This document shows positions 46,649-64,000 of a stretch of 64,000 bases of DNA, piece after piece. Under the pieces are notes generated by a model. It had not been told where the DNA came from and searched no databases. It worked only from the letters and a program-made list of their open reading frames with translations. The DNA comes from Alkalinema sp. FACHB-956 (lineage in GTDB: Bacteria; Cyanobacteriota; Cyanobacteriia; Leptolyngbyales; Leptolyngbyaceae). The position numbers and the translations under genes are program-made. Location: contig NZ_JACJRC010000018.1 of NCBI RefSeq assembly GCF_014697025.1, positions 1 through 64,000 of the forward strand. Direction: 5' to 3'. Positions within the stretch are counted from its first letter, which is position 1, and each line of letters begins with the position of its first letter.

Positions 46649-46724
46649 ACAATTTCTCCCTAGTAATCATCGAACAATCAATCTGTTGTTGATTCCAGCC
46701 ATCATCCTAATGCAGACTATCCTG

Positions 46725-47240
46725 TCATCTCAGACTATCCTGTAATCTAAATTGAGCAATAGTCGCAATTTCTGCCAATGCCGTTTGTTGCTCCTGCTCC
46801 GGTGTATTCTGGAGCCGTTGTTCAAAGGCTTCTAGAATCGTTGTCTTGGTATGGTTGCGCACTGCGATGATGAAGGGAAAGCCAAATTTGGCTTTGTAGG
46901 TCTGATTGAGGGCCTGAAAGCGATCGTATTCACTAGCCGTGAGTTGATCGAGCCCCACCCCCGCCTGTTCCTTGACCGAGGCTTCAGCCATCTTGGCTCG
47001 ACTGCCTAAATCCGGATGGGCGCAGATCAGATCAATCTGTTGCGCTGGGGGCAATTGATCTACGATCGCGACCATTTTCTGGTGGAGATCTGTAATACTG
47101 ACAAAGGGCCGCTGTAACCAAGCCTGTTGAGCAATTCTCGGCGTTTGTTCAAAAATATGCCCCAGGGCTGCTATAAAATCCAGTTCAGACATTGCATTCA
47201 ATTCGATCAGGGAATAGGTTGGAGCCATACCTAAACTCAT
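46725..47240 (-). CDS. uraD: 2-oxo-4-hydroxy-4-carboxy-5-ureidoimidazoline (OHCU) decarboxylase
   Basis: About 171 residues, all-helical. Catalytic histidine in CAHPDLGSRAKMA, with the FGFPFIIAVRNHTK substrate block and FEQRLQNTPEQEQQTALAEIATIAQFRLQ C-terminus. It decarboxylates OHCU to S-allantoin. The ATG at 47240 (MSLGMAPTYS) has GAAG 5 bases upstream; a downstream ATG at 47228 would also serve. It lies between the genes for the preceding and upstream steps. Confidence 0.92.
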   Translation of the reverse strand: MSLGMAPTYSLIELNAMSELDFIAALGHIFEQTPRIAQQAWLQRPFVSITDLHQKMVAIVDQLPPAQQIDLICAHPDLGSRAKMAEASVKEQAGVGLDQLTASEYDRFQALNQTYKAKFGFPFIIAVRNHTKTTILEAFEQRLQNTPEQEQQTALAEIATIAQFRLQDSLR

Positions 47241-47301
47241 AGATACTTCAGACAAACTATCACGCGAGAGACCGGAAGCATAATTTCTAAACTCAGTAAG
47301 A

Positions 47302-47661
47302 TTAACTGCCCCGATAGGTCGTATACGACCACGGAGAAACTAAGAGCGGAATATGATAATTTGCATCGGGATCAGAAATTGTAAAGCGAACTGGAACTTC
47401 CATCAGAAAGGGGAGATCCGGAAGATTCAGGGGCTGTTGGTCAAAATACTCTTTCACAAAAAAGATGATTTCGTAAACGCCCGTTTTTAACTGTTCGTTG
47501 AGCCGTAATGGAACATCGGTACGACCATCTAAATTGGTCACTGCTGTGACTAACAGTTGCCGATCGCCGGATTCGCGATCGTACCGCCAAAGTTGAAGGG
47601 AGACCCCTGCCGCTGGGCAGCCTTGGGCCGTGTCTAGAACATGGGTTGTGAGTTTTCCCAT
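47302..47661 (-). CDS. uraH: 5-hydroxyisourate hydrolase (transthyretin-like)
   Basis: 119 residues. The start MGKLTTHVLDTAQGCPAAGV and the C-terminal YRGS are signatures of HIU hydrolases; conserved catalytic histidine (TTHVLD), arginine (DGRTDVPL) and terminal tyrosine are present. It hydrolyses 5-hydroxyisourate to OHCU. It is the first gene of the minus-strand series and is divergent from the allophanate-related gene, sharing a 147-bp promoter region. Confidence 0.95.
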   Translation of the reverse strand: MGKLTTHVLDTAQGCPAAGVSLQLWRYDRESGDRQLLVTAVTNLDGRTDVPLRLNEQLKTGVYEIIFFVKEYFDQQPLNLPDLPFLMEVPVRFTISDPDANYHIPLLVSPWSYTTYRGS

Positions 47662-47808
47662 TGGTGTTTACCAGGAAAGTGGGTCGATCAAAATTGGAGA
47701 GTTGGGAATATTTTATTTTCGTTATAGCATAGGCGTAGTGGCGCATTTGTGCTGGACTGATCAGATTGCAAGAAAACTCAGATCAGGAGAAGACACTTGG
47801 GAGAAGAC

Positions 47809-48216
47809 ATGATGACTCAGCCCTCCGTTGAATATAAGCGAATTTTCATCTGTGGATCAGCCCTACGGGGACAACCCGACCATGCCAACTTAGGCGATGC
47901 GGTATTCATTCGATCTGCGCAGACACAGCCCTTGTACCGTCTCCACGCGGCTGGGGATGGGTGGCATCCCGCCATCTATGCCGTGGACTCTGGCGGAATT
48001 TCAATTCCGGGGGAGGTCTACGATTTAACTCTGGCAGACTTTGACCACCTAGCCGCCAATGAGCCGCCCCATATGTATCCCAGCGACGTTGTCTTGGAGG
48101 ATGGGGAAGTTCTAACCGCATTTTTATATCCCCAGGAATTGATCGAGCAGTTTAACTGGCCCGATATTTCCCACCACGGCGGTTGGGCCGCCTACAAAGC
48201 CGCCGCCAGCCAGTAG
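47809..48216 (+). CDS. Allophanate hydrolase-related / gamma-glutamylcyclotransferase-fold protein
   Basis: About 135 residues. FICGSALRGQPDHANL resembles the C-terminal domain of allophanate hydrolase (AtzF), which has the gamma-glutamylcyclotransferase fold; GEVYDLTLADFDHLAANEPPHMYPSDVVLEDGE continues it. As a stand-alone protein it is often next to purine-degradation genes, as here. Its reaction is unknown. GGGAGAAG lies just before ATG 47809 (or 47812). Confidence 0.7.
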   Translation: MMTQPSVEYKRIFICGSALRGQPDHANLGDAVFIRSAQTQPLYRLHAAGDGWHPAIYAVDSGGISIPGEVYDLTLADFDHLAANEPPHMYPSDVVLEDGEVLTAFLYPQELIEQFNWPDISHHGGWAAYKAAASQ

Positions 48217-48235
48217 TCTCGGCTCTTCGGTGCAT

Positions 48236-49156
48236 TTAGAATGCCGTTGGTGGATGGTGTTGGTGCCAATGGTGCGCAATATCCATCCGCCGACACAGCC
48301 ATACCCGATCGTGGCCCTGCACATAGTCTAAAAATCGTGCTAAAGCCGCCGATCGGCCCGGTCGTCCCACCAAGCGACAATGTAGCCCCACACTCATCAT
48401 TTTCGGGGCAGTTTCTCCTTCGGCATACAGCACATCAAAGGCATCCCGCAGGTAGGCAAAAAACTGATCGCCGGAATTAAAGCCCTGACTGGTGGCAAAA
48501 CGCATATCGTTATTATCCAGTGTGTAGGGGATCACCAAATGGGGCGTGCCGTAGTCGTAGACCCAGTAGGGCAAGTCATCGGCGTAACTATCGGCATCGT
48601 AGAGGAATCCCCCGGCTTCCACCACCAGTTTGCGCGTGTGGGGACTGTTGCGGCCCGTGTACCAACCCAGGGGACGACTGCCCGTGACGCGGGTGTGAAT
48701 CTCGATCGCCCGTTGTAAATGATCCCGTTCCGCCGCTTCATCAAAATCTTTGTAATCAATCCAGCGATACCCATGGCTGGCAATTTCCCAATCCGCTTGC
48801 AGCATTGCCGCCACCGCCTCTGGATGCCGTTCTAAGGCCATGGCAATCCCATAAACTGTCACCGGAATCTGCCGTTGGGTAAACAGCCGATGCAGCCGCC
48901 AAAAGCCCGCTCGACTGCCATATTCATAGCAGGATTCCATATTCATATGCCGCAGACCCACAAAAGGTTGGGCCCCCGGAATCTCCGATAGAAACGCTTC
49001 CGATGCCCGATCGCCATGCAAAATACAGTTTTCGCCACCTTCTTCATAGTTGATCACAAATTGCACCGCAATCCGAGCTTGGTGAGGCCACTGGGGATGG
49101 GGAGGCATCGCACCATAGCCAATCAGATCACGGGGATAAACCGAAGAATTTACCAT
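48236..49156 (-). CDS. puuE: Allantoinase, PuuE type
   Basis: About 306 residues of the polysaccharide-deacetylase (NodB) fold rather than the amidohydrolase fold: RIAVQFVINYEEGGENCILHGD, EIASHGYRWIDY (metal ligands), and SVGLHCRLVGRPGR. PuuE hydrolyses allantoin to allantoate, the step after OHCU decarboxylation. ATG 49156 (MVNSSVYPRD) has AGGA about 6 bases upstream. It is convergent with the allophanate-related gene (19 bp). Confidence 0.93.
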   Translation of the reverse strand: MVNSSVYPRDLIGYGAMPPHPQWPHQARIAVQFVINYEEGGENCILHGDRASEAFLSEIPGAQPFVGLRHMNMESCYEYGSRAGFWRLHRLFTQRQIPVTVYGIAMALERHPEAVAAMLQADWEIASHGYRWIDYKDFDEAAERDHLQRAIEIHTRVTGSRPLGWYTGRNSPHTRKLVVEAGGFLYDADSYADDLPYWVYDYGTPHLVIPYTLDNNDMRFATSQGFNSGDQFFAYLRDAFDVLYAEGETAPKMMSVGLHCRLVGRPGRSAALARFLDYVQGHDRVWLCRRMDIAHHWHQHHPPTAF

Positions 49157-49433
49157 TGATGTTCCTAACCAGTGCAAGAAATAGTTCCAGTGTAGGCGGT
49201 AGCCCGAGTCAAATTCAGTTACCCAGCCATCTGTTTTATACGTTTTTATTCAAATAGCAGCGCGGCCCCACCTCCCACTATAGGCGGACTCCATCCACTC
49301 CCTTCTGATAGAGCCGACTCAAGAGTAACCCTTCTATTCTGATGATTGAGGGGCCAACAGTTTCAGTAACTCACCCGCTGTTCCATCCCCTCACCGAACC
49401 CAATGCAATTTCTATTCCATCTAGGAGAAAATT

Positions 49434-50232: not shown

Positions 50233-50958
50233 CTATTTTTTACCAGTGCTGTCAGTCTGGACTGTCTCTTCCCGCTTATCACAGGTTTCATAGACGATAC
50301 CCGCCTGAATCTCTCGCCATTCAGGCGTGATCTCCTCTGTACTGGTCAAAATCTCCTGGGCCAAATCCAACCATAGCCCCTGCTGCGTCAGAAAGCTAAC
50401 CTGCTCTTGCACCATCGCTAAGCCCCGTTTCCCCGATCGCCAAGCCGATTCCCGCACTTGCTTTTGCTGAAAACTTAACTGTGACTTCGCTTTTGGTGTA
50501 ACGGTTTGGAAATTCGCATACATTTCCGTCGAGTTCTGATGCAGGATCAAACGATACTTTTGTCCTGCCTCCAGATCTGGCCCGGAATACACCATGCGCG
50601 TTAGGCCATCCGCATCCGGCAAGAGGCTGACTGGTTGCTCCCAAATCATTTGCCCGGATTCTTTTATTAACTGTACAAATTTCACTTGACCACGCCACAC
50701 CCAAGTCGGTCGAGATCGGAGCATCAAGGGCTTTTCTGTACCCCATCGCCCAGGCACTACCGAGCATAATAATTGATCTCCACGACTGCCACCAGTTCCT
50801 GATGGGACGGGAGGTTTGCCCCCAAATAAACTGTTATAAATTCGGCTCCATGGACTTTCCTGCTGAGCATGAGCGATCGAGGATAGATCACCCAGAACCA
50901 GCATCAGACATGTTGTACTGATTAACGCTGTAAGTCGAAACTTAAACCCGCTTTCCAT
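50233..50958 (-). CDS. DUF928 secreted protein
   Basis: About 241 residues. Signal peptide (LTALISTTCLMLVLGDLSSIAHA), then a domain with RSRPTWVWRGQ, MVYSGPDLEAGQKYRLIL and LAQEILTSTEEITPEWREIQAGI, characteristic of the mainly cyanobacterial DUF928 family. Function unknown; commonly next to CHAT-CHASE2 genes. ATG 50958 is supported by AAGGA 8 bases upstream, which excludes ATG 50967. The start overlaps the CHAT-CHASE2 3' end, so the two are translationally coupled. Confidence 0.82.
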   Translation of the reverse strand: MESGFKFRLTALISTTCLMLVLGDLSSIAHAQQESPWSRIYNSLFGGKPPVPSGTGGSRGDQLLCSVVPGRWGTEKPLMLRSRPTWVWRGQVKFVQLIKESGQMIWEQPVSLLPDADGLTRMVYSGPDLEAGQKYRLILHQNSTEMYANFQTVTPKAKSQLSFQQKQVRESAWRSGKRGLAMVQEQVSFLTQQGLWLDLAQEILTSTEEITPEWREIQAGIVYETCDKREETVQTDSTGKK

Positions 50959-53293
50959 AGACTGCATCCTTCACTACTGCTAATAAGATATACATGGAAA
51001 TCGTCGTCGTTGGCAACAAAACTGGCAACAAAATTTGAAACGAGATATAGACTTGAAAACTGAATAAAGTGATAATACTAAAGCTAAGAATTAATCCACT
51101 CCAGATATAGAGGTTCATCCCTTTTTGGGAACGATAGATGACCAGTCCCTTAGCTATAAATGCCGCTAGTAGAACCAACCAGAGATCTGGAATCGGACGA
51201 ATAAATAATTGATTCCGCCATTGGTAGGCTAAATAGGCATGGATATTTCCTCCTGGCATTTGATCCATACTGGATTGCCAATAGCGAAAAGCCTGGGGTG
51301 TTCCATAGCGATCGGCATTTTTATGCTCCACTCCCGCCTCGTCATACAGACCTGGTGCAATTAGTAAGATCTGCTGTGCTAAATCTTGTAAGTCCGGTGA
51401 TGTTTTTAAAGTTTCCAGAAATTGATGGGCAGGTAATGTTTTATAAACGCTTTCCGGATCGATCGAATAGTCAATCAGCGGATGGAACCACATTTGTCCA
51501 AAACCGTAGGATAGCCGCGTGATTGGACTGGGCGTGAGCCAATCCGGTGAACCCTGCGATCTCTGACAAGAGGCGGAGGGTTGGGCGGCACTTCTTGGCC
51601 CTAAACAGGCTAATTGGTAAGCCAAGGGCAACACAGACTGGGATGAATCCTGCAAGGGCACATAAATCGACGATCGATTCATGCCTTCAGCGGCCAGCAA
51701 TAGCCCCATAGAGCCATAGTGCACCCCTGAACTCGGAAATAGGTCGGGTAAGGGTTTTTGGCAAGTTTCGCCCCGACAATCCACCCCAACCACCAAGGGC
51801 AATCCTTGGGCTACTAACTTTTTCGTTGTTTGACTAAAGGACTGATCAACCTCTTTCTGCGGACGATCGAGCAAATAATCCAGACCCACGATCGGCGCTT
51901 GCATCTTGGCTGCCTGAGTCAACAGCTTACCAAGATAGCCTTTATTAATCGGCCAGACGGGTTCAATGCGATTGTTCTTGATCGAATCAGAATCTATCTG
52001 AACCAGTAAAACCAAAGGCTTTGGCGCAGGTGTTTGCCCTGTTGCATCCCGATAGACCGCCTGAACCCACTGCCGGCGATCGATGAGTGCCTGTTGCACA
52101 TTCAGCAAGCTACTCAGCACGACTAACCCCGTCAACCCGATCGCTTCCCAAACAGTCGGTTTCCATTGACGTAACTTGGCACGGGTCCCCACTGGACGGG
52201 CCTGAAATAGCGGGGCATCAGGATGGCAGTAGAGCGATGGCACCAGATGGGTCGAGGGAAACTTTAAGCGTCCCTGGAGGTACTGACAGGCCGATCGGAG
52301 CGAGGCATGAATCGTTTGCTCACTGGCTAATCCTTTGACAAACTGAAGAAAAAACTCCTGCGCTACCTGATTGTGAATCGGTTCCCGCATCACGACCACC
52401 TGACTCAACCCCAAATCCACCAAGCCCTCAGCAATATTTAAACCACTACAGGAATTGAAAATGGCGACTTTGAGGCCCCGCTGCTGCGCTTGCTTTAAAA
52501 ACGGTCGCAGTTCACTGATCAGCAGCGACTGACCAGGCGCAATAAAAATTCTGCCCTGACTTAATTCAGTTTCATTGCTGTGTCCTGCAAAAAAGAGGAT
52601 ATCCCAACCCACAACATCACTGAGCGCTTGGGTAATTCGATCTTTCAGATCATTCTCAGCCAATCCCTCCTGCCAGCCCACAAATTGCACATCTGCCACT
52701 TTATTTGTTTTTAGGGCTTTCAGTGCCTCGTATTCATTTTGGAAATCTAAGCCAGTGTCATCGCCCATAATGGCCAGAATGCGCAGCCGTCCCTGCCGTT
52801 GCAGTGTTTTAGCGGAATAGCGAATGTTGATGGGCGATCGAATAATTTGAATGGACTGAGCCGCTCCAAACTGCTGCCCCACGTCCCAAGCTTCCCAGGG
52901 CAACCGCTCCAAGTCGATATTGTCACAGCTTAGAAATAGGGCGATCGGTTCTCCACCATTGGCCTTCGCCAGTTCAGCCAGTTGCGTCCGCAGCGGTAAC
53001 AGTTCTGCATGGCTAAGCCAAGTATCAAATTCATTCAGCAATAACACCTCAGCTTGCGCAAGCTGCACCCGCAAATCCTCCGGCGGAACGTCCCCCGTCC
53101 CACTGGGGCCGGGTCGCCCCCGCAAATCGCGATAGAATCGGCCATAGAGAGCACGCCAGTTATCATACAGATTCTTTAAGCTAGCAGGGTAGTGAATAGA
53201 CCGCTGGATTGAACGACCTTGGCCTGCATCCAAAAAGAAGATGCAAGTTTGATCGGCTTGGCTAATGCGGAGAAAAACACGTTTAGCAGACAT
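50942..53293 (-). CDS. CHAT-CHASE2 membrane protein (caspase-like protease domain plus sensor)
   Basis: 783 residues. N-terminal CHAT domain (about 115-370) with the caspase-like dyad H238 (FFAGHSNE) and C282 (FNSCSG); a transmembrane segment (about 380-400); a CHASE2 extracytoplasmic sensor domain (about 400-690); and C-terminal transmembrane helices (about 695-775). This order places a cytoplasmic protease domain before an external sensor, so a signal outside could switch on proteolysis. Family members have no established substrate. The stop overlaps DUF928 by 17 bases, and the DUF1822 gene is 50 bases upstream. Confidence 0.87.
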   Translation of the reverse strand: MSAKRVFLRISQADQTCIFFLDAGQGRSIQRSIHYPASLKNLYDNWRALYGRFYRDLRGRPGPSGTGDVPPEDLRVQLAQAEVLLLNEFDTWLSHAELLPLRTQLAELAKANGGEPIALFLSCDNIDLERLPWEAWDVGQQFGAAQSIQIIRSPINIRYSAKTLQRQGRLRILAIMGDDTGLDFQNEYEALKALKTNKVADVQFVGWQEGLAENDLKDRITQALSDVVGWDILFFAGHSNETELSQGRIFIAPGQSLLISELRPFLKQAQQRGLKVAIFNSCSGLNIAEGLVDLGLSQVVVMREPIHNQVAQEFFLQFVKGLASEQTIHASLRSACQYLQGRLKFPSTHLVPSLYCHPDAPLFQARPVGTRAKLRQWKPTVWEAIGLTGLVVLSSLLNVQQALIDRRQWVQAVYRDATGQTPAPKPLVLLVQIDSDSIKNNRIEPVWPINKGYLGKLLTQAAKMQAPIVGLDYLLDRPQKEVDQSFSQTTKKLVAQGLPLVVGVDCRGETCQKPLPDLFPSSGVHYGSMGLLLAAEGMNRSSIYVPLQDSSQSVLPLAYQLACLGPRSAAQPSASCQRSQGSPDWLTPSPITRLSYGFGQMWFHPLIDYSIDPESVYKTLPAHQFLETLKTSPDLQDLAQQILLIAPGLYDEAGVEHKNADRYGTPQAFRYWQSSMDQMPGGNIHAYLAYQWRNQLFIRPIPDLWLVLLAAFIAKGLVIYRSQKGMNLYIWSGLILSFSIITLFSFQVYISFQILLPVLLPTTTISMYILLAVVKDAVYGKRV

Positions 53294-53343
53294 CGGGGAT
53301 TGTTGGATGAAACGATTTGCAGAACATGAGAAGCATGAATTTT

Positions 53344-54654
53344 TTATGTAAAGGCAAAGTTCGGGAGGGTGATGGTTTGATTTTGATACTGCAAGGTGAC
53401 TGTAAATTGTTCATCCAGTTCCCCCGTCACGCTGCCATAGAGAAAGTCAGATTGGGTTGTTTCCGTTTGCCGATCGATTAAGACCGCGCTAGCATCTGCA
53501 ATCTGCAACCCTAAGCCCCGAGGTAAATCGGCGCGATCCTGCTGGCGCAAGATCACGAGTAAGGACCATTCGGCTACACCGGACTCCGGCGATGGTGTTA
53601 CAGGCGCAATCACCGCATACAGGCGCAGTGCCAAGTCACCTAATTGCACATCTTGGTAGGCGGTTGCTTTTTCTAGGGGGATTGCGATTCCCTTGCGCAT
53701 CAAGCTCATCAGAATGGCAGACAAATCACCCATGGGAGAATCTGCTTCCACATCCCGTAACTCACGGGTTGCCGGGGCGAGATCGATCGCGGGAAGTACC
53801 TGCCATGCCGCCAACTCTGTTGCGATCGCATCTCCTAGATGATTAGCGGCTTGATTGGCTCGATCGACTTGCTGATGCAGCCATTGTCCGGTTCTCACCA
53901 CAGGTTGCACCAGTAGTTGGCGCAGTCGCTGGGAAAGGTCGGGAGTCGGTCTACCTTGGGGTAAGGCAATCGCTACGGGATCTAGGCAAGTCAGATAGAG
54001 TAAGAACTCGTCTAAGTCTGGGTTGGCTTGCTCGATCGCGAGACGACAATAGCGGTCTGTTTCCTGGAGTTGCGGCAGTTGGTCATGGCGTAGGAACCCG
54101 AGGATTTCCGCTTGACCGGATTCCTCATGGAGGACGATCGGGAGATAAAAGTGGGAGGCAAACTGAGGATTATGAATAGAAGAAGCGGGAATACACCAAT
54201 CATCAGCACTGCCATCGGTAACAATTAGGCAAAGGTTAAAGGTTGCAACTTTAATTCGACAAACTGCAATATGACCTTTGATGGTTGGGGGAGTGGTATT
54301 GGAGCGAATACTAGGCTGGGAAGACTCAGCTGTCTCTGGCAACAGGATGATTGCTTGGGAGAGATCGAGTGATGCGGAGGTCGTTCGTTGTTTGAACCAA
54401 TGCTGAAAGGCTTGGATTGCCAATGCATGGAGATAAATTGCCCAACTAGACTGAACAGACTCGGAGGCTTTTCCCCAGCGTTGGCTAATCTCTTGGGCTT
54501 GCGAAAAGTCTGCATCTTCTAGGGGAACAATCTCACCTTGCAACGGTTCATAGTCTAGGAGAAGATCAGCGTCTAGTAGAAAATCGGTCGAGCGTAGATA
54601 ACTGTCCATAATAGTGATGGTGGGTGAGGAAGAGGTCGGTGATTGAGAATTCAT
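53344..54654 (-). CDS. DUF1822-family protein
   Basis: 436 residues. A cyanobacterial family without known function, recognised by LPLE-like IVPLEDADFSQAQEISQRWG, AIYLHALAIQAFQHWF and the C-terminal segment (LLVILRQQDRADLPRGLGLQIAD...FLYGSVTGELDEQFTVTL). Cytoplasmic and helical at the N-terminus, beta-rich at the C-terminus. The gene is in the typical order with the 454-residue gene before and CHAT-CHASE2 after. The start could be ATG 54654 or 54609; neither has a clear ribosome binding site. Confidence 0.8.
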   Translation of the reverse strand: MNSQSPTSSSPTITIMDSYLRSTDFLLDADLLLDYEPLQGEIVPLEDADFSQAQEISQRWGKASESVQSSWAIYLHALAIQAFQHWFKQRTTSASLDLSQAIILLPETAESSQPSIRSNTTPPTIKGHIAVCRIKVATFNLCLIVTDGSADDWCIPASSIHNPQFASHFYLPIVLHEESGQAEILGFLRHDQLPQLQETDRYCRLAIEQANPDLDEFLLYLTCLDPVAIALPQGRPTPDLSQRLRQLLVQPVVRTGQWLHQQVDRANQAANHLGDAIATELAAWQVLPAIDLAPATRELRDVEADSPMGDLSAILMSLMRKGIAIPLEKATAYQDVQLGDLALRLYAVIAPVTPSPESGVAEWSLLVILRQQDRADLPRGLGLQIADASAVLIDRQTETTQSDFLYGSVTGELDEQFTVTLQYQNQTITLPNFAFT

Positions 54655-54692
54655 GGTGGGTTCGACGGGTAATTGCCTAATCAGCGGGTGAT

Positions 54693-54762
54693 GTACTGTG
54701 TTTTGGTGTACTGCTTGGCGTACTGTATTTTGGTGTACTGCTTAGCGTACTGTTTGGTGTAC
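54693..54762. repeat. 27-bp tandem repeat, two and a half copies
   Basis: GTACTGTGTTTTGGTGTACTG begins the first unit; units start at 54693, 54720 and 54747 with few differences (TG/TA and G/A). It lies in the leader before the DUF1822 gene on the minus strand. No function is apparent. Confidence 0.85.
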
Positions 54763-54817
54763 ATTACTGTCTCAATCTGGAAGCCGCAACCCTATGAATA
54801 TCAAGCTTTCCGAGAAA

Positions 54818-56182
54818 TTACGGAACTGTCATAATCAGATGGAGATAGGTACAGAGTTTCTGCGTAAAAAGGCTGGGGGTGATGCTGTAGCCTTTGGCGG
54901 TGCTAATTTCTGCCTGGACGGCTGCGATCATCTCATCGACTTGCGTTTCTAAAGCGCGATCGATCTGTTGGGCGACCTGCACCAACCGATCGGGATCCAC
55001 AAAAAATGGCCCTTTTTCCTGAATGAAGCTTTTGAGTTGATGCAGGATGAGGTTGCGCACATCGGCACGGAACGCTTTGAGCTTGAGGAGACGGGTGACT
55101 TCATCCTGGCGTTGTAGCCCGATCGTGGGGGCAATGGCGCGCATGGAACAGCGTTGGCAGTGGAGTTGTTCGAGGGCTTGGAGAAATTGAGTTGCTTTTT
55201 GTGGTATTTGCTGGAGGCGATCCTGGATAACTTGCTGGAGGGCTTGTTCTAGGGCGTTGGTAAATTCTTGGCGAAAGGCGTGGAGAAAGTCTGCGATCGC
55301 ATCGTCATCCTCTGGTGTGGGTTGATTTTGGGAAATTTGGTATTCTAATTGTTCAGCGGTTTCGGGCACATCTAAGGATTGGCTCAAGTTCCTTTGTCTG
55401 ACTAGTCCACCCCGACGATAGATCCGATATTGGCGCAGTTGTTCTGCTAGTTTTTTAAGTCGATCGGAAATGTTATCGGGTTTTAATTGTTCATGGATAC
55501 TTTGTTCGATAAATGTAGCCATACGTTCCAGTTGGGCTGGGGTGGGATCTTCACACCGTCTACGTCCCTTTTGGTGTTGCCGATCGTGTAAATAAACGTT
55601 GTGGTAACTGTTGAGCAAAACGATGGCAAAACTAATTTCGGATACGGATAATTGATAGAACTCCCGTAGCATTTTTTCTAGGCTATCGGGGGAGGTGTCG
55701 TTGAGGATGGCCCAGGGGGTGATGAGGTGTAACCCTTGGCTGAGTAGGAATTGCTGGAGGGCGGGATGCTGCCGAACGAAGCGGATAATCCAGTTCTGTA
55801 GGCTGCCTGACTCTGCCCGGAAGCGCTGCAAAATTACGATCGCGAGGGGCTTATAGGAACTAGTTTCTGGGTCATAGGCAAATCGCCCATCATCATCGAG
55901 GACGAAGGGCAGAAGGTCGGAGAGTTGAAATTGGTAGTTGTCGCCAAATTGTCGAACTAGTTTGAGGCAGGCTTGCACAATGACATGGGAGATGTAGCAA
56001 CGGAGGCACAGTTGCGCCTGGGAATCGGCATGGGTCAGGAGGCGATCGAGGATTTTGGCAGGGTCGATCGGTTCAGGAAATTGTTGAAGGAAGAATGCTT
56101 TGGCGGGGGGCAGCTCTTTGGGTTGGTAGGTGCCGTCAGCTTGGAGCCGGAGGATTGTCCAGTATTGACTCAGGTTGTCCAT
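54818..56182 (-). CDS. Unrecognised protein, possible divergent sigma-factor-like HTH
   Basis: 454 residues, mostly helical. Features: a 60-residue segment HNVYLHDRQHQKGRRRCEDPTPAQLERM, and near residue 345 a candidate helix-turn-helix with LHCQRCSMRAIAPTIGLQRQ and DEVTRLLKLKAFRADVRNLI. That region resembles sigma-70 region 4 or a similar DNA-binding HTH, but I cannot confirm a family. It comes first in the likely operon with DUF1822, CHAT-CHASE2 and DUF928, suggesting a regulatory role. Length and context recur in cyanobacteria, as far as I recall. Confidence 0.55.
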   Translation of the reverse strand: MDNLSQYWTILRLQADGTYQPKELPPAKAFFLQQFPEPIDPAKILDRLLTHADSQAQLCLRCYISHVIVQACLKLVRQFGDNYQFQLSDLLPFVLDDDGRFAYDPETSSYKPLAIVILQRFRAESGSLQNWIIRFVRQHPALQQFLLSQGLHLITPWAILNDTSPDSLEKMLREFYQLSVSEISFAIVLLNSYHNVYLHDRQHQKGRRRCEDPTPAQLERMATFIEQSIHEQLKPDNISDRLKKLAEQLRQYRIYRRGGLVRQRNLSQSLDVPETAEQLEYQISQNQPTPEDDDAIADFLHAFRQEFTNALEQALQQVIQDRLQQIPQKATQFLQALEQLHCQRCSMRAIAPTIGLQRQDEVTRLLKLKAFRADVRNLILHQLKSFIQEKGPFFVDPDRLVQVAQQIDRALETQVDEMIAAVQAEISTAKGYSITPSLFTQKLCTYLHLIMTVP

Positions 56183-56270
56183 GGTGGGTTGTATTCCCTC
56201 GATCGGGGGAGATTGGGCAATGGGAAAGCTGGGACTGAATTAGTCTATCAAGGTTGTCGAAATCAAGGGG

Positions 56271-59200
56271 TTACAAGCTGTTACCGACGAGGGTAAAGGG
56301 TGCCCAGTAGTAGGGATGGGCGAGGGAGTTGGGGGCGGGTTGCCCTGGCACATCGGGGCGGGCATTGGCACGGGGTAAGGCGCGGGCATCGGTGAGGGAG
56401 AATTGTTCCGTGATGAAGGCTTGTTGGACTTGTTGTAGGGCTTGGGCTTTGGTTTGGCCGTTGGCGAGGTGTTGGTAGAACTGTTGCATGAGCAATGCGG
56501 TGCTGGCATCGTTCACGGCCCAGAGGGAGGCGAGAACGGATTTTGCGCCACGCCGTAGGAAGTAGTTGCTGATGCCGGAGATTTCGGTGCCGTCGGAACT
56601 GGCGCTACTGATGCCCGTTTCGCAGGCGGAGAGGACAACGAGGTGTTTGGTGCTGAGGTTGGTGAGGTTGGCGATGTCTGTGATGGGGAGTTTGTCGCCG
56701 TTGCCTAGTAATAAAAAAGAGGCGGTGATGGTTTTTGGGTTGAAGCTGCCGTGGGTGGCGATGTGGAGGACGCGGGAGGGGGCTGGGTTGCGGAGGCTGT
56801 TGGCGGTGAAGGCTGCGTTGAGTTGGATGATGCCGGGATAGATGCCCCGATCGTTACCCCGATTACCCCGATCGTTATTCTGGCGGACGATCGCGTGGAG
56901 TTCGGCTTCGACGTTGGGGAGTGGGTTGAAACCGGGGAAGCCGTGGGAGGTGCCGAGGGCGAGGATGGTGGGAGTCTGACCGGGGGGGGCAAAGCGATCG
57001 CCCATGTCGGTGTCGGTGGTGATGAGGTTGGAGAGGGTGTGTTTTTGAATCAGGTATTGTTGGCCGTCGTAGAGGGTGGCGATCGGGATGTAGCGGGTGA
57101 CGTGGTCGAGGGAGAAGAGGAGTTGCAGGTTGGGGTTTTGGCTGAGTTCGGTTTGCAGGGGGGGTGGGATGAGCCAGTTGTAGAGGGTGTGGCTGGTGGC
57201 TTTGAGGCTGTCGAGGTTGCTGTAGGGGGAGCCGAGGGCTTTGCGCAGCCGATCGACGGTTTGGGTCAGTTCTTTTTGCGGGACATCGAGGGCGATAGTT
57301 TTGACGGTACCTTTCGCGTTTGTCCAGATGACCCAGAGTTTATCACCGACGACTAGGTTTTGAATCAGAATGGTGTTGGGTTGGGCGTTGAGGATTGTGT
57401 TGGGGTTCCCGATCGCGAGGTTGGATTGATTCATGTCTTGGGTGATGCGATCGGTCTGTTGTTTGAGGGTTTTACCCAGGGGTTCTAGGGTGGCGAGGGA
57501 GAAGGTTTTCTGTTGTTCGATCTGTTGCCAGGTTTGGGTTTCTAGGGGATGGAGGGGGAATTGGATCGGGGATGTTTGTTGTTGTTCATCGTAGTTAGAG
57601 GATTCTTGGACTTTGAGCAGTTCCAGAATGGCTTGGGCTTCGCGGGTACGCCCTTGGGTGAGGAGGAGATCGGCAAGGCGACGATAGGTGCTAGAGACGG
57701 TGCTGGTATAGATTTCCTGGGTTTCACGGGGCAGTTTACGCAAGTCTTTCCGAATGGATTCAGCAACATTGACCGATTGCTTGTAGAAGACGATAGCCAG
57801 TTCTGGATCTTGTTTGGCAAGAGCAACACCTAAGTTATTGAGTGCTTTATATTCACCATCTCGGTTTTTGATTCCACGGGCAATAACTAAACTTTGTTGA
57901 TGATATTCAGTTGCTTTAGGATAATTGCCGAGAGAATTGTATATATTTCCTAGATTACCAATAGATTGTCCTTCTCCCAATCGATCTTTAATTTCCCGAG
58001 CAATTGCTAGATGTTGTTCCTGATACTCAATCGCTTTCGCATAGTTGCCCAGAGAATGGTATGCAAGTCCTAGGTTGCCGAGTGCTCCGCTTTCCCCCCA
58101 TCGGTTTTTGATTTCACGAGCGATCGCTAAAGTTTGTTCAAGATATTCGATCGCTTTTGGATAGTTACCGAGCGATTGGTATGCATTTCCCAGATTGCCG
58201 AGTGCTACGCCTTCCCCTGGTCGGTTCTTGATTTCACGGGCGATCGCTAAATATTGTTCGTGATACTCAATCGCTTTGGGAGAGTTACCGAGCGATTGGT
58301 ATGCAATTCCCAAATTGCTAAGCGCACTGCCTTCTCCCTGGCGATCTTTAATTTCCTGGGTAATGGCCAAACTTTGTTCCTGATACTCGATCGCTTTGGT
58401 ATAATTCCCGAGAATATTATATGCAATTCCCAGATTCCCGAGTGATGCACCTTCTCCCTGGCGATCTTTAATTTCCCGCGCAATCGCTAAACTTTGTTCC
58501 TGATACTTGATTGCTTGAGGATAATGCCCGAGATGTAAGTGTGTATTTCCCAAATTTCTGAGTGATGCACCTTCTCCTTGGCGATCTTTAATTTCATGAG
58601 CAATAGCTAAGCGTTGTTTATGATACTCGATTGCTTTGGCATAGTTGCCGAGGTCATTGTATACATTTCCCAGATTCCCAAGTGATGCACCTTCTCCCCG
58701 GCGATCTTTAATTTCCCGCGCAACTACCAAACTTTGTTCATGATACTCGATCGCCTTGGCATAGTTGCCCAGAGCATCGTATGCAAGTCCCAGATTCCCC
58801 AGCGCATGTCCTTCTCCCCGTCGGTCTTTGATTTCCCGCGCAACTACCAAACTTTGTTCGTGATACTCGATCGCTTTGGGATAGTTGCCTAGAGCATCGT
58901 ATGCAAGTCCTAGGTTGCCGAGTGCTCCGCCTTCCCCCTGTCGGTTTTTGATTGCTCGTGCAATCGCTAAACTTTGTTCATAATACTTGATCGCTTTGGT
59001 ATAGTTGCTGAGAGAATAATATGAATTTCCTAGATTTCTCAACACACCTCCCTCTTGCCACCGATTTTTCAGTTCACGAATGATCGCTAAACTTTGTTCG
59101 TGATACTTGATCGCTTTGGGATAGTTGCCGAGAGCATTGTATACATTTCCCAAATTTCCCAGCGTAGCTCCCTCCCCCTGTCGGTCTTTGATGTCTCGCG

Positions 59201-60137
59201 CAATCACTAAACTTTGTTCGTGATACTCAATCGCTTTAGCATAGTTGCCGAGATTATTGTATGCACTTCCCAGTTTCCCCAGCGATTGTCCTTCTCCCCG
59301 TCGGTCTTTGATGTCTCGCGCAATCGCTAACCGTTGTTCCTGATACTCGATCGCCTTGGCATAGTTGCCCAGAGCATCGTATGCAAGTCCCAGATTCTCC
59401 AGCGCATTGCCTTCTCCCCGTCGGTCTTTGATGTCTCGCGCAATCGCTAAATGTTGTTCGTGATACTCGATCGCTTTAACATAGTTACCCAGAGCCTGGT
59501 ATACATTTCCCACATTCCCCAGTGCAGATCCTTCCCCCTGACGATCTTTAATTTCCCGCAAAACCACCAAACTTTGTTCGTGATACTCGATCGCTTTGGC
59601 ATAGTTGCCCAGAGCATCGTAGGCATTTCCCAGATTCCCCAGCGCAGCTCCTTCCCCCCATCGGTTTTTGATGTCTCGCGCAATCACTAAACTTTGTTCG
59701 TGATACTCGATCGCTTTGGCATAGTTGCCCAGAGCATCGTATGCAATTCCCAGATTCCCCAGCGATTGTCCTTCCCCCGGTCGGTCTTTGAGTTCTCGCG
59801 CAATCGCTAAACTTTGTTCCTGATACTCGATCGCTTTGGCATAGTTGCCCAGAGCATCGTATGCAATTCCCAGATTTCCCAGGGCATTTCCTTCCCCCCT
59901 TCGGTCTTTAATTTCACGATACAACTTAAGGGCTTGTTGCCAAGACTGGAGAGCTGCTTCAAACTGGCTGATTTGGGCTTGCTGAATGCCTTGCAGCAGC
60001 AGTTGGTCGGCGGTTGCCTTCTTTTGTGCAACCGTCGGTGCAGCGGTCTGCGCCACTCCCGGCAGCTCACCCACCGCCACCACTGCCGTCATCCCAATCA
60101 CCAACCCCGTCACCCAACCCGCCACCTGATTCCGCAT
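56271..60137 (-). CDS. Secreted TPR-CHAT protein with 17 near-identical 40-residue repeats
   Basis: 1288 residues. Signal peptide (MRNQVAGWVTGLVIGMTAVVAVGELPGVAQ), a degenerate TPR, then 17 kinesin-light-chain-like 40-residue TPRs (about 84-763, consensus NLGxAYxxLGNYxKAIEYxEQ, ending KDRxGEG), a degenerate 18th, and a C-terminal CHAT domain (about 985-1288). CHAT dyad: H1129 (HIATHGSF) and C1172 (SACETG), 43 residues apart. TPRs should bind a protein partner and CHAT should cleave one. Outside the cytoplasm the partner is unknown. The next gene downstream starts 88 bases after its stop; the next upstream one ends 112 bases before. Confidence 0.9.
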   Translation of the reverse strand: MRNQVAGWVTGLVIGMTAVVAVGELPGVAQTAAPTVAQKKATADQLLLQGIQQAQISQFEAALQSWQQALKLYREIKDRRGEGNALGNLGIAYDALGNYAKAIEYQEQSLAIARELKDRPGEGQSLGNLGIAYDALGNYAKAIEYHEQSLVIARDIKNRWGEGAALGNLGNAYDALGNYAKAIEYHEQSLVVLREIKDRQGEGSALGNVGNVYQALGNYVKAIEYHEQHLAIARDIKDRRGEGNALENLGLAYDALGNYAKAIEYQEQRLAIARDIKDRRGEGQSLGKLGSAYNNLGNYAKAIEYHEQSLVIARDIKDRQGEGATLGNLGNVYNALGNYPKAIKYHEQSLAIIRELKNRWQEGGVLRNLGNSYYSLSNYTKAIKYYEQSLAIARAIKNRQGEGGALGNLGLAYDALGNYPKAIEYHEQSLVVAREIKDRRGEGHALGNLGLAYDALGNYAKAIEYHEQSLVVAREIKDRRGEGASLGNLGNVYNDLGNYAKAIEYHKQRLAIAHEIKDRQGEGASLRNLGNTHLHLGHYPQAIKYQEQSLAIAREIKDRQGEGASLGNLGIAYNILGNYTKAIEYQEQSLAITQEIKDRQGEGSALSNLGIAYQSLGNSPKAIEYHEQYLAIAREIKNRPGEGVALGNLGNAYQSLGNYPKAIEYLEQTLAIAREIKNRWGESGALGNLGLAYHSLGNYAKAIEYQEQHLAIAREIKDRLGEGQSIGNLGNIYNSLGNYPKATEYHQQSLVIARGIKNRDGEYKALNNLGVALAKQDPELAIVFYKQSVNVAESIRKDLRKLPRETQEIYTSTVSSTYRRLADLLLTQGRTREAQAILELLKVQESSNYDEQQQTSPIQFPLHPLETQTWQQIEQQKTFSLATLEPLGKTLKQQTDRITQDMNQSNLAIGNPNTILNAQPNTILIQNLVVGDKLWVIWTNAKGTVKTIALDVPQKELTQTVDRLRKALGSPYSNLDSLKATSHTLYNWLIPPPLQTELSQNPNLQLLFSLDHVTRYIPIATLYDGQQYLIQKHTLSNLITTDTDMGDRFAPPGQTPTILALGTSHGFPGFNPLPNVEAELHAIVRQNNDRGNRGNDRGIYPGIIQLNAAFTANSLRNPAPSRVLHIATHGSFNPKTITASFLLLGNGDKLPITDIANLTNLSTKHLVVLSACETGISSASSDGTEISGISNYFLRRGAKSVLASLWAVNDASTALLMQQFYQHLANGQTKAQALQQVQQAFITEQFSLTDARALPRANARPDVPGQPAPNSLAHPYYWAPFTLVGNSL
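57849..59888 (-). repeat. 17 x 120-bp tandem repeat inside the TPR-CHAT gene
   Basis: Each 40-residue TPR is encoded by 120 bases, and the DNA units are very alike in places, for example those at 59581, 59701 and 59821. This shows recent gene-internal expansion rather than old repeats conserved only in protein. Confidence 0.92.
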
Positions 60138-60249
60138 CTTGCCCCCACAGTTTGTAAAACCAGCACATGGCTAAACCCTCAACTTAAATTACCAGATCTA
60201 ACCATGTACATTGTTATATGGATTGCTAAATGTAACGATCCCACAATCC

Positions 60250-60759
60250 CTAAAAATCATCCTTTCCAGTGAGCTGCTTCTCCATCGCATCTGCACTATA
60301 CAACGTCACCATCAATGCCACTTCCAAATCCTCCGGCTTCAGATTCGCATCGACCTTGGCTGCAAAAAGGGCTACACTGCGCTTCTCACCCTGCACCACC
60401 TGCCACGCCCCAACTTTAGTTTTATTAGACGCCTTCAATAACTGATTCGCCACATCAGCACTGAGTTCCCCTTGGGCCACATATCCTGGCGATACAATCT
60501 GACGAACTTCTAAACCTTTCAGACTGTCTGTTTTAGAACGGATAAAAGCCCGTTGTGTTCGTTCATCCTTCATTTTGAGGACAACTTTAAAATCACCATC
60601 TTGATCAATCTCATATTTCCAGCCCATCTTATCCAGCGCCGCTTTGACCCGCTGATCGCCATTGGCTGATGCCTGGGTAGGGTTGGCAGGAATCAATTGA
60701 CTCAGAATTGCCACAAATGTTGCAGCCGTTAAAACAGTAGTACCAATCCAGCGTTTCAT
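60250..60759 (-). CDS. Small secreted YbjN-like protein
   Basis: About 169 residues. Signal peptide (IGTTVLTAATFVAILSQLIPANPTQA), then an alpha/beta domain with KAALDKMGWKYEIDQDGDFKVVLKMKDERTQ. The order helix, then a strand with Y-x-x-D-x-D-G-D, resembles YbjN / type-III chaperone-like folds, but I treat this as a weak match. Start ATG 60759 has AGGAG about 8 bases upstream; the open frame would extend to 60777. It sits between the two TPR-CHAT genes in the same orientation, so it may be a partner or substrate of one. Confidence 0.65.
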   Translation of the reverse strand: MKRWIGTTVLTAATFVAILSQLIPANPTQASANGDQRVKAALDKMGWKYEIDQDGDFKVVLKMKDERTQRAFIRSKTDSLKGLEVRQIVSPGYVAQGELSADVANQLLKASNKTKVGAWQVVQGEKRSVALFAAKVDANLKPEDLEVALMVTLYSADAMEKQLTGKDDF

Positions 60760-60898
60760 TATGATGGCTCCTTCCACGATCGAGGAATTTTTTGCTTGTA
60801 TGCATTCATCATTCCAGCCATACAGAGGTTATGGAAAAATTGCTGAAGCATCAATGTAGCAAGACTTTGCAAGAGGCATCCAGTACAAATAACCCTGC

Positions 60899-63800
60899 CT
60901 ACAAGTTATTCCCCATCAGAATAAACGGTGCCCAATAGTAGGGATGGGAAAGATGGTTGGGGCGTTTTTGGTTGGGGATGTAGCGGCGGGCTCCGGCTCG
61001 ATCGGCGGCATCTTGGAGCGTAAGTTGGCTGTTGATGAACTTGAGTTGGACTTGGCGCAGGGCTTGGGTTTTGCTCTTGCCGGGGGTGAGATTCTGGTAA
61101 AACTCTGACATCAGCAGACTGGTGGCGGGGTCATTCACTTTCCAGAGGGAGGCGAGAACAGCTTTGGCTTTGGCGTTGCTGCTGAGGAAATAGGCGGCAA
61201 TTCCCGCAACTTCTGAGCCATTACGATCGCTGCCTCCCAGGGCAGTTTCGCAGGCAGAGAGGACGACGAGATGGACATTTTGCAGATCTTCTAGATATTG
61301 AATTTGGGAGATTTCGTAGGGGGTACTATCACCGAGAACCAGGTAGGAGGTACGAGGGGCTGTGGGAACAAATTCACCATGGGTTGCAATATGGAGAATG
61401 TTGGGCTTGTACTGGGCAAGTTGGGCTTCCAGCGTTTTGCGAGAGAAGTCACGATCGAGCCAAGTGATACCATTAAGAACGCCACGGGAATCGGTTTTAG
61501 CATCACTTTTGACAATGTTATCGAGTTCGTAGGTGACGTAGGGAAGGCTACTAAATTCACGGGTGGGATTGGTTAGGGTGACGGGTTGGGAAAGGCCAAA
61601 ACCCAAGACGGAGGGGCGATCGGGGAGTGTGGCTTGGGTGTCGGTGAGGCTGACGGAGAGAATATTGGAAACGCTGTATTGTTCGATCAAATATTGTTTG
61701 CCGTCGTAGAGGGCGGCCATGGGGATGTAGTTGGTGACGCGATCGGGTACGAAGATGAGGTTGGTGATCTTGTTTTGGGTGAGTTCGTTACGGAGTTTTT
61801 GGGGCAGGAGGCATTGGTAGAGTTGCTGGCCTGTGGTTTGAACGGGGGTCAGGTCGGTACTATTTTGGAGGTCGGTGCGGAATTGTTCGACCAGTTTGGA
61901 GAGTTGGGCTTCACCGAGGGGACATTCGGTTTGACTGAGGACGCCGCCTTTAGAGGCCCAGAGGATACGGGTTTTATCTTTGAGGACGAGGGGATAAATC
62001 AGGACGGTGTTGGGTTGGGTATCGACGATTTTTCGGGCTCCGCCGCTGAAGTCGTCGGTGCTCGCGGCGATCGCTGTGTCCCGTTCTTTTATAAGTTGGG
62101 TTTTAACGCCTTCAATAAATTGGTCGTAGGCGGCGGTGAGGTTGCGGTAGGTTTGGTTGTATTCTTCCAGTTTGGGGCAGTTGGTTTGTTTACAGGTATC
62201 GCGTTGTTGGCCGAAGGCGATTAGGGAGTTGTATTTTTTGATGATTTCCTGTTCGATTTGGGTGAGGGGAACTTGGGTGAGGGGGGTAGCGGAACGGGTG
62301 CCTTCAGTAACTGCGTTGATTTCTTGAATTTTTAGGAGTTCTAGGACTTTCTGAGCTTCACCGATACGGCCTTGGGAAAGGAGTAAATCGGCAAGTTGTC
62401 GATAGGTATCGGCAATGGTTTGGGTGTAGGATTCCTGCTGTTCTTTGGATAGGCTACGATTGCTAGTTCGAATACCTTCGTAGGTATTCACAGATTGTTT
62501 ATAAAACGCGATCGCCAGTTCGGGTTGGGTTTGAAAGAGTTTGCCTAGCGTTGCTAAGGCTTCTGCTTGGGTCGTACGATCGTTCACAGTCTGAGCGATG
62601 TTCAATGCTTGCTGTAACGCCTCCTGCGCTGCTTGCACCTGACCTTGCGCCAGATAAACTTGTCCCAAGGTATTCAGCGTCGATGCTTCCCGTGGGCGCA
62701 ATCCAATTTTGCGTTGCAGGGCCAAAGCGTCCTGTAAAAATCTTTCAGCTTGAGCCCAATTTCCCTGTTTTTCGTAAGTCTCGGCTATTCTCTGAAAGAT
62801 CACGCTCTGCATGGAGAGATTACCAGTTTCCCGAAACAGCGTTAGCGATTGCTGGTATACCTGAAGCGCCTGCGGGTAGTTTTTTTGCTTGCGATATACG
62901 TTGGCAATGTGGATAAGGGTAGACGCTTCACTATTTTTTTCCCCTAGTTCACGACTGAGTAACAAAGATCGCTGCAATCGTTCCAAGCCTTGAGAGTACT
63001 GACCTAAATTGACATAAACACGCCCCTGCGCTAGTAAGCCTACAAATTCACTAGAACGGCTTCCCATCTTTTGGGACAATGCCTGTGCTTGCTGATAAAA
63101 CTCCAGTGCTTTCGCGTAGCTCGATTGGGCATGATAAACTTCTCCGATGTTCCGCAGTATAATTACCTCATTAGGGAGATCACCTGTCTTGCGGGCCATT
63201 TCTAGTGACTGCTGCAACTGCTCCACAGCCAGATCATATTTACCCTGATCTATATAAAGCACTGCAATATTATTTAAAGCAGTCACAATCTCAAAGCCAT
63301 ATTGACGTTTGATGGAGATCGATCGCTGATGAAATTCCAAGGCCCGCTCGAAATCTCCTTGCGTGCTGTAGATGCCTGCGAGGTTATTCAACGCGGTTGC
63401 TTCCGCCGCAGGAGACTGTATAGCTTGTGCTACTTCTAGGCTTTGCTGAAGGTAACTGAGAGCTTTAGTCGTTTGTCCCTGCTCATCATAGACTCGTCCG
63501 ATATTATTGAGAATTCTGCCTTGCATGGAACGAGCACCAGATGCAAGAGCAATTTTCATCGCTTGCTGTAAAACATCTAATGCTTTGGGGTAGTCACCTA
63601 TGGCAAGGTAAACATTACCAATATTATTGAGGAAGGTGGTTTGGCGATCTAAATCCTTATATTGCTGGGCGATCGCTAACCCTTGCTCGTGAGTTTTCAG
63701 TGCTTCAGGATAACGCCCCAAGCCATCATAGACAAATGCCAGGTTATTCAACAATGAACTAAGACTAAGCTGAAAAATTTTCAGACACAACTGTGGATCA

Positions 63801-64000
63801 TTAATTTCTTTTATCCCGCACAGTTGATCCTCCGCCTTAGTATTTCCAGATTGCAGTTGCTGAATTGCTGTTTGTAATTGGTTTAGTGCTTTCTGTTGTA
63901 GGTTCAGTGCTTGCAAATAGTCCCCTCTGTTAGAGTAATTATTACTGATGTTATTGAGTAAAGCGACTTCACTTGAAATATTTTTTTGACTACGGGCAAT
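60899..64000 (-). CDS. TPR-CHAT protein, second copy (5' end beyond window)
   Basis: At least 1033 residues; the frame is open to base 64000 and reads TPR-like sequence (EVALLNNISNNYSNRGDYLQAL), so the start lies outside the window. Diverse kinesin-light-chain-like TPRs (LNNIGNVYLAIGDYPKALDVL and so on) are followed by a C-terminal CHAT domain with H (HIATHGEF) and C (SACETA) 43 residues apart, exactly as in the other copy. The CHAT domains are clearly related, but the TPRs are far less uniform, so this copy has not undergone the same recent expansion. Confidence 0.9.
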   Translation of the reverse strand: MARSQKNISSEVALLNNISNNYSNRGDYLQALNLQQKALNQLQTAIQQLQSGNTKAEDQLCGIKEINDPQLCLKIFQLSLSSLLNNLAFVYDGLGRYPEALKTHEQGLAIAQQYKDLDRQTTFLNNIGNVYLAIGDYPKALDVLQQAMKIALASGARSMQGRILNNIGRVYDEQGQTTKALSYLQQSLEVAQAIQSPAAEATALNNLAGIYSTQGDFERALEFHQRSISIKRQYGFEIVTALNNIAVLYIDQGKYDLAVEQLQQSLEMARKTGDLPNEVIILRNIGEVYHAQSSYAKALEFYQQAQALSQKMGSRSSEFVGLLAQGRVYVNLGQYSQGLERLQRSLLLSRELGEKNSEASTLIHIANVYRKQKNYPQALQVYQQSLTLFRETGNLSMQSVIFQRIAETYEKQGNWAQAERFLQDALALQRKIGLRPREASTLNTLGQVYLAQGQVQAAQEALQQALNIAQTVNDRTTQAEALATLGKLFQTQPELAIAFYKQSVNTYEGIRTSNRSLSKEQQESYTQTIADTYRQLADLLLSQGRIGEAQKVLELLKIQEINAVTEGTRSATPLTQVPLTQIEQEIIKKYNSLIAFGQQRDTCKQTNCPKLEEYNQTYRNLTAAYDQFIEGVKTQLIKERDTAIAASTDDFSGGARKIVDTQPNTVLIYPLVLKDKTRILWASKGGVLSQTECPLGEAQLSKLVEQFRTDLQNSTDLTPVQTTGQQLYQCLLPQKLRNELTQNKITNLIFVPDRVTNYIPMAALYDGKQYLIEQYSVSNILSVSLTDTQATLPDRPSVLGFGLSQPVTLTNPTREFSSLPYVTYELDNIVKSDAKTDSRGVLNGITWLDRDFSRKTLEAQLAQYKPNILHIATHGEFVPTAPRTSYLVLGDSTPYEISQIQYLEDLQNVHLVVLSACETALGGSDRNGSEVAGIAAYFLSSNAKAKAVLASLWKVNDPATSLLMSEFYQNLTPGKSKTQALRQVQLKFINSQLTLQDAADRAGARRYIPNQKRPNHLSHPYYWAPFILMGNNL

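Follow-up and report, generated by a model that had tools for sequence, protein, structure and literature searches.

A series of seven genes at positions 50233 to 64000 of the analysed window, the first 64,000 nucleotides of contig NZ_JACJRC010000018.1 (C18, positions 1-64000) in the 6.16 Mb genome of the cyanobacterium Alkalinema sp. FACHB-956, may encode a system of transmembrane signal transduction. In this system, a membrane-bound sensor would lead its own CHAT protease domain to cleave a DUF1822 protein, releasing a sigma factor for the expression of surface proteins. The probability of this reading is put at about 0.5. The three CHAT proteins (one with CHASE2, two with TPR), the DUF1822 protein, the 454-residue protein of helix-turn-helix (HTH) type, and the small secreted protein listed in a preliminary description of this DNA are all present, in series and on one strand. 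The features in transcription order are as follows, the two catalytic codons being given after the gene that contains them.

60899 to 64000, minus strand: TPR-CHAT protein 2, 1740 residues, exceeding the window edge (full gene at contig positions 60899-66121); Pfam CHAT, E 5e-60; signal-peptide-like N-terminus; dyad His1581/Cys1624 with motifs HIATHG and LSACET
60250 to 60777, minus strand: small protein, predicted exported, 175 residues; no recognised family (best YbjN, only E 0.02)
56271 to 60137, minus strand: TPR-CHAT protein 1, 1288 residues; Pfam CHAT, E 7e-60; signal-peptide-like N-terminus; about 17 TPR units; dyad His1129/Cys1172
54818 to 56182, minus strand: putative divergent sigma-70-family protein, "class C", 454 residues; profile-profile comparison, PDB profile matches, AlphaFold2 model
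53344 to 54654, minus strand: DUF1822 protein; Pfam, E 2e-26; adjacency and tree congruence
50942 to 53293, minus strand: CHAT-CHASE2 protein, 783 residues; EACC2-like N-terminus; CHAT at residues 98-339 (E 1e-11), CHASE2 at 390-711 (E 4e-18); four transmembrane segments predicted
52580 to 52582, minus strand: codon of predicted catalytic His238, conserved in 103/104 relatives
52448 to 52450, minus strand: codon of predicted catalytic Cys282, conserved in 103/104 relatives
50233 to 50967, minus strand: divergent DUF928-like protein, predicted exported, 244 residues; hhalign and CHASE2 association

No intergenic gap exceeds 163 bp (121, 112, 88, 163, and 50 bp in transcription order, followed by one 26-bp overlap). 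A promoter and terminator scan gave a signal at or below shuffle level, so the operon structure is read from strand and spacing only.

In the proposed route, the signal would come from outside the cytoplasmic membrane and be sensed by the CHASE2 ectodomain, probably together with the DUF928-like protein after its export. Sensing would then activate the N-terminal part of the CHAT-CHASE2 protein, the CHAT domain, which is a caspase-like cysteine protease predicted to lie in the cytosol. Meanwhile, the DUF1822 protein would keep the adjacent divergent sigma factor inactive until the activated CHAT domain cleaves or otherwise inactivates DUF1822. Once released, the sigma factor would transcribe its own operon together with surface and export genes, such as those for exported TPR-CHAT proteases. 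This relay of protease, inhibitor, and sigma factor is proposed because the gene arrangement matches the Csx29-Csx30-CASP-sigma and CalpL-CalpT-CalpS precedents.

The sigma factor relative and its DUF1822 partner

The 454-residue protein has no significant match in Pfam and receives no identity from NCBIfam or PADLOC; DUF1376 and KinB_sensor, both weak Pfam matches below the cut-off, were rejected. To this extent the protein fits the label of unknown HTH-bearing protein given to it earlier, but it can be placed in the sigma-70 superfamily. In other copies of the cluster, the same position is held by "class A" proteins matching Pfam Sigma70_r2 and Sigma70_r4, and hhalign aligns class C with class A over 408 columns at a probability of 100%, while controls against DUF1822 and DUF928 stay below 1%. 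The joint profile matches sigma factors of the PDB in order, with region 2 at 79-150 and region 4 at 306-360 (best E 6e-10). The AlphaFold2 model of the protein has a mean predicted local distance difference test score (pLDDT) of 86.9. Foldseek with this model reaches a best E of 0.34, its top row being sigma-32, and the top 41 rows of VIA-align are sigma factors over residues 14-385, about two of the 41 being integrative models titled by other chains. Since the VIA-align Z values (up to 7.5) lie in the range reachable by chance for helical proteins, the fold match backs the sequence evidence and cannot stand alone. Taken with the profiles, it points to a divergent member of the sigma-70 superfamily with putative roles in core RNA polymerase binding and promoter choice. 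Cys 72, 210, 342, and 444 are invariant in 11/11 aligned class-C proteins and Cys62 is nearly invariant; these cysteines could serve metal or redox control. For class B, which consists of short proteins, the hhalign relation to sigma factors is weak (54%, one HTH), and its position in the cluster is part of the reason for calling it "sigma-like".

The DUF1822 gene accompanies the sigma-like gene almost without fail. In a sample of 98 genomes across the phylum, with the copies of this genome included, a sigma-like gene lies directly upstream in 79/89 DUF1822 loci, and a homologue of the CHAT-CHASE2 protein (EACC-CHAT) follows downstream in 52/89. An independent search anchored on the sigma factor finds DUF1822 as the next gene in 69 of 75 class-C loci. 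On a DUF1822 tree of 84 rows, the sigma classes A, B, and C need two changes, the minimum possible (shuffled mean 33), whereas the presence of EACC-CHAT changes 13 times. Sigma factor and DUF1822 are a near-inseparable constant pair, and the sensor is what is exchanged. In loci without EACC-CHAT, the gene after DUF1822 may instead encode a TPR-CHAT protein, a two-partner-secretion (TPS) exoprotein, a trypsin-TPR protein, or a C14 caspase. Fusions of sigma factor and DUF1822 were looked for and none was found.

The AlphaFold2 model of DUF1822 (mean pLDDT 77.8) combines an alpha/beta part with a C-terminal beta-sandwich, for which the fold search returns generic Ig-like beta-sandwich matches only (residues 287-436). 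A PDB sequence match to HLA chains (E 0.009, 43 residues) was judged to be chance. Csx30 does not appear in the PDB sequence or fold lists for DUF1822, though a remote relation is possible. From its constant pairing and position, DUF1822 is proposed to be both the sigma inhibitor and the protease substrate.

Stand-alone class A sigma-DUF1822 pairs without CHAT occur at loci L104, L105, L110, and L113, often followed by a short gene of 155-169 residues and/or an oxidoreductase-like protein starting near IGVAIVGTGFG, and form a conserved unit of their own. At L158:12597-14249 the DUF1822 gene is in several pieces and is apparently a decaying copy. In the window, a short tandem repeat of 27 bp (2.3 copies, 94% matches, 54692-54762) lies between the sigma gene and DUF1822 and is a possible regulatory site.

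The putative sensor protease and the proteins predicted to be exported

The CHAT-CHASE2 protein carries CHAT at its N-terminus and CHASE2 at its C-terminus. Residues 1-370 are common to 104 homologues, of which 84 end in CHASE2 and the others in nSTAND1-WD40, PBP-like, Peripla_BP_6, pentapeptide, or TPR domains. Thus, the N-terminus of EACC-CHAT proteins is constant, whereas the C-terminal sensor varies. The His238/Cys282 dyad is kept in 103/104 of these relatives, and with the CHAT domain present, proteolytic activity is predicted. The CHAT dyads of the island were checked for non-catalytic forms and are intact by sequence. Together with the interchangeable sensor domains and the dedicated sigma/partner pair, the intact dyad supports the sensory proteolysis that the preliminary description had suggested.

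Compartments were assigned by a simple hydrophobicity test, which is a heuristic and not a trained predictor. Signal-peptide-like starts are found in 45/49 DUF928-like and 56/63 TPR-CHAT proteins, compared with 2/80 sigma, 1/76 DUF1822, and 2/104 EACC-CHAT proteins. The first transmembrane segment of EACC-CHAT proteins lies near residue 397, and in several CHATs a TPS secretion domain is part of the same protein. Because of these features, the TPR-CHATs are predicted to act outside the cytoplasm and the DUF928-like protein to be exported, and in the sensor protein CHAT is most likely cytosolic with CHASE2 outside.

The 244-residue protein does not match Pfam PF06051 (DUF928), and NCBIfam and PADLOC also leave it without an identity. 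Profile-profile comparison by hhalign relates its class to DUF928 at 97.8% over 150 columns. The earlier label of DUF928 therefore holds as a remote relationship and not as a Pfam match, and we call the protein DUF928-like. Its gene directly follows EACC-CHAT in 58/70 CHASE2 versions and in 1/18 non-CHASE2 versions (Fisher p 1e-9). Elsewhere in this genome, DUF928 adjoins CHASE2 histidine kinases, cyclases, and a TIR-CHASE2 protein, and in a one-per-genome sample CHASE2 lies within ~6 kb of 10/20 DUF928 genes. The association of DUF928 with CHASE2 is strong inside the module and partial elsewhere, and we propose that the DUF928-like protein is a partner of the CHASE2 ectodomain. One TIR-CHASE2 membrane protein (L069:10272-12251) is encoded together with DUF928 and a joined TPS-CHAT protein (L069:4754-9352).

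The TPR array of TPR-CHAT protein 1 is encoded by 17 tandem units of 120 bp (78% matches, 57861-59918), which suggests repeat expansion. Relatives of the 175-residue protein are absent from all other loci examined, and its place in the system is unsupported.

Recurrence in cyanobacteria and competing explanations

Whole-genome matches number 38 for CHAT, seven for DUF1822, 12 for DUF928, and 18 for CHASE2. The order sigma-like, DUF1822, CHAT-CHASE2 is found at 6/7 DUF1822 genes of this genome, usually with DUF928 next. At the C25 locus, one strand carries a sigma-like gene, DUF1822, CHAT-CHASE2, DUF928, a TPS+CHAT protein of 2122 residues, and an ShlB transporter. After the paralogous module closest to that of the window, C36, comes a C14 caspase with DUF4384 (L064:1464-3641) in place of the TPR-CHAT genes.

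The genes also co-occur widely in other cyanobacterial genomes. All 80 loci returned by the search anchored on class-C sigma factors are cyanobacterial, consistent with the restriction to this phylum that had been suggested. Among class-C loci, EACC-CHAT lies within 3.5 kb in 38/63 and a DUF928-like gene within 6 kb in 34/58. TPR-CHAT genes are near 37/80 class-C sigma genes (1.26 Mb scanned), where ~7 CHAT genes would be expected from a genome density of 256 CHAT in about 43 Mb. CHAT genes are numerous in the six cyanobacterial genomes counted (38 here, 19-80 in five others), yet the recurrence of the sigma-DUF1822-CHAT/CHASE2 order exceeds chance.

Several points weigh against the proposed relay. 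For class C, which is divergent, sigma activity is putative. DUF1822 matches no known anti-sigma factor in the PDB sequence or fold lists, though again a remote relation is possible. DUF1822-sigma binding and CHAT cleavage of DUF1822 are inferred, as are the inhibition of sigma, the ligand, and the regulon. Finally, 37/89 DUF1822 loci have no EACC-CHAT downstream, from which it follows that the pair can work without EACC-CHAT or with a protease encoded elsewhere.

This last point also favours an explanation that we consider unlikely, though it is a serious one, in which sigma and DUF1822 form a transcription-control pair, the CHATs cut other targets such as envelope proteins or themselves, a common surface programme accounts for the shared operon, and DUF1822 is no substrate of the protease. 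Indeed, such pairs without EACC-CHAT occur next to TPS exoproteins, secreted trypsin-TPR genes, or TPR-CHAT genes, and the fusion of several CHATs to TPS secretion domains also favours this explanation. However, the CHAT domain of the sensor protein is predicted to be cytosolic and hence in the same compartment as sigma and DUF1822, and two systems of protease, anti-sigma, and sigma factor are already known, one of CHAT type and one of Lon type.

A role in regulated cell death or anti-phage defence, also raised by the preliminary description, would make the CHATs caspase-like executioners triggered via CHASE2, which appears improbable. Kaur et al., 2021 (PMC8195603) place the class of EACC2-caspase, ECF (extracytoplasmic function) sigma, and DUF1822 among systems of apoptosis and immunity; the closest paralogue has a C14 caspase gene beside it, and sensor variants with nSTAND-WD40 exist. 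On the island, however, the PADLOC matches are generic ones to TPR, weak ones to CHAT domains (BovA, SAVED_CHAT), and marginal others, none of them to a system-specific model. The window neighbours are metabolic, the nearest being urate catabolism, and the TPR-CHAT and DUF928-like proteins are predicted to be exported, the signal-peptide-like N-termini of the former being unlike Csx29. Six copies per genome with a linked sigma factor also suit transcriptional signalling better than killing. No supporting evidence for defence or cell death was found in these sequences, which leaves such a role unsupported rather than excluded. That abundant CHAT, CHASE2, and TPR paralogues lie together by chance as no functional unit is barely credible despite the CHAT and CHASE2 counts given above, since the same order is repeated in dozens of genomes and six times in this one, and TPR-CHATs near class-C sigma genes far outnumber the prediction, and for the four-gene core chance is already refuted.

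Precedents, prior work, and neighbouring genes

The core module is a member of a kind already described. Kaur, Iyer, Burroughs, and Aravind (eLife 2021, PMC8195603) report proteins of the EACC2-caspase type whose C-termini vary, CHASE2 being one of them, and whose genes neighbour an ECF sigma factor and DUF1822; sensing followed by autopeptidase activation and transcriptional output is already proposed there. As in those systems, a constant N-terminal alpha+beta domain (here EACC2-like, likened by architecture), a caspase-like domain, and a variable C-terminal sensor adjoin sigma and DUF1822. Unlike the proteins described there, the sigma factor here is large (454 residues), divergent, and not recognised by Pfam, and the window DUF1822 is modelled as alpha/beta plus beta-sandwich, where TPR is named there. 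The CHASE2-specific DUF928 partner and the exported TPR-CHAT/TPS arm were not found in the passages of that paper that were read. New elements, as far as the literature searched shows, are a large and divergent class of sigma factor, the strict pairing of sigma and DUF1822 on the tree, a DUF928 partner specific to CHASE2, an arm of exported TPR-CHAT and TPS proteins, and the presence of the module six times within one genome.

In the type III-E CRISPR Craspase, the TPR-CHAT protein Csx29 cleaves Csx30, the inhibitor of CASP-sigma (PMC10028731). Both there and here, a CHAT protease is encoded beside a sigma factor and a partner that is not a protease; de-inhibition of sigma by cleavage is established for Craspase and proposed here. 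The Craspase input is RNA via Cas7-11 (PMC10028731), whereas here it would be a membrane sensor, and Csx29 acts in the cytosol with an RNA-guided complex, whereas the TPR-CHATs of the island carry signal-peptide-like N-termini. In a type III CRISPR system, the Lon protease CalpL cleaves CalpT to release CalpS (PMC12751052). The fusion of sensor to protease is shared with the present module and sigma release from an anti-sigma factor, known for Calp, is proposed for it, but the Lon protease and the SAVED sensor of cyclic oligoadenylate are unrelated to the protease and sensor here. Reading of the nearby genes showed neither Cas7-11 nor any other CRISPR component.

In envelope signalling of the RseA/DegS/RpoE type, which PMC10028731 also cites, an envelope signal leads through proteolysis to sigma release, as is proposed here. 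There, the anti-sigma factor is a membrane-spanning substrate cut stepwise by separate proteases; here, a single membrane protein holds both sensor and protease, and the inhibitor, as proposed, would lie in the cytosol.

A broader picture, which we hold tentatively and at somewhat less than even odds, is that in cyanobacteria a family of transmembrane sensor proteases, with CHASE2 outside and CHAT inside on one protein, each control their own sigma/DUF1822 pair. They would be an equivalent of Craspase that responds to outside signals, exists in many copies, and has a swappable sensor, with a divergent sigma class and DUF928 as co-receptor, governing exported CHAT proteases and TPS surface proteins. 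If the chain from sensor through CHAT, DUF1822, and sigma to exported proteins is true, it would supply a function for many of the tens of cyanobacterial CHATs that have no assigned purpose and would link caspase-like proteases with transcription in a setting other than CRISPR. It would also assign roles to DUF1822 as sigma partner and to DUF928 as CHASE2 partner; very little has been published on either family.

Adjoining the island is a urate/purine catabolism cluster (45488-49177) with genes for an FAD mono-oxygenase, OHCU decarboxylase, HIU hydrolase, an AIG2/allophanate-hydrolase-C-like protein, and a polysaccharide-deacetylase-family protein (PuuE allantoinase-like). Farther away, at 39806-42556, a 916-residue protein combines cyclic-nucleotide-binding, sigma-54-activator AAA, and membrane 4Fe-4S (Fer4_5) domains. 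This protein is odd because cyanobacteria are generally regarded as lacking sigma-54.

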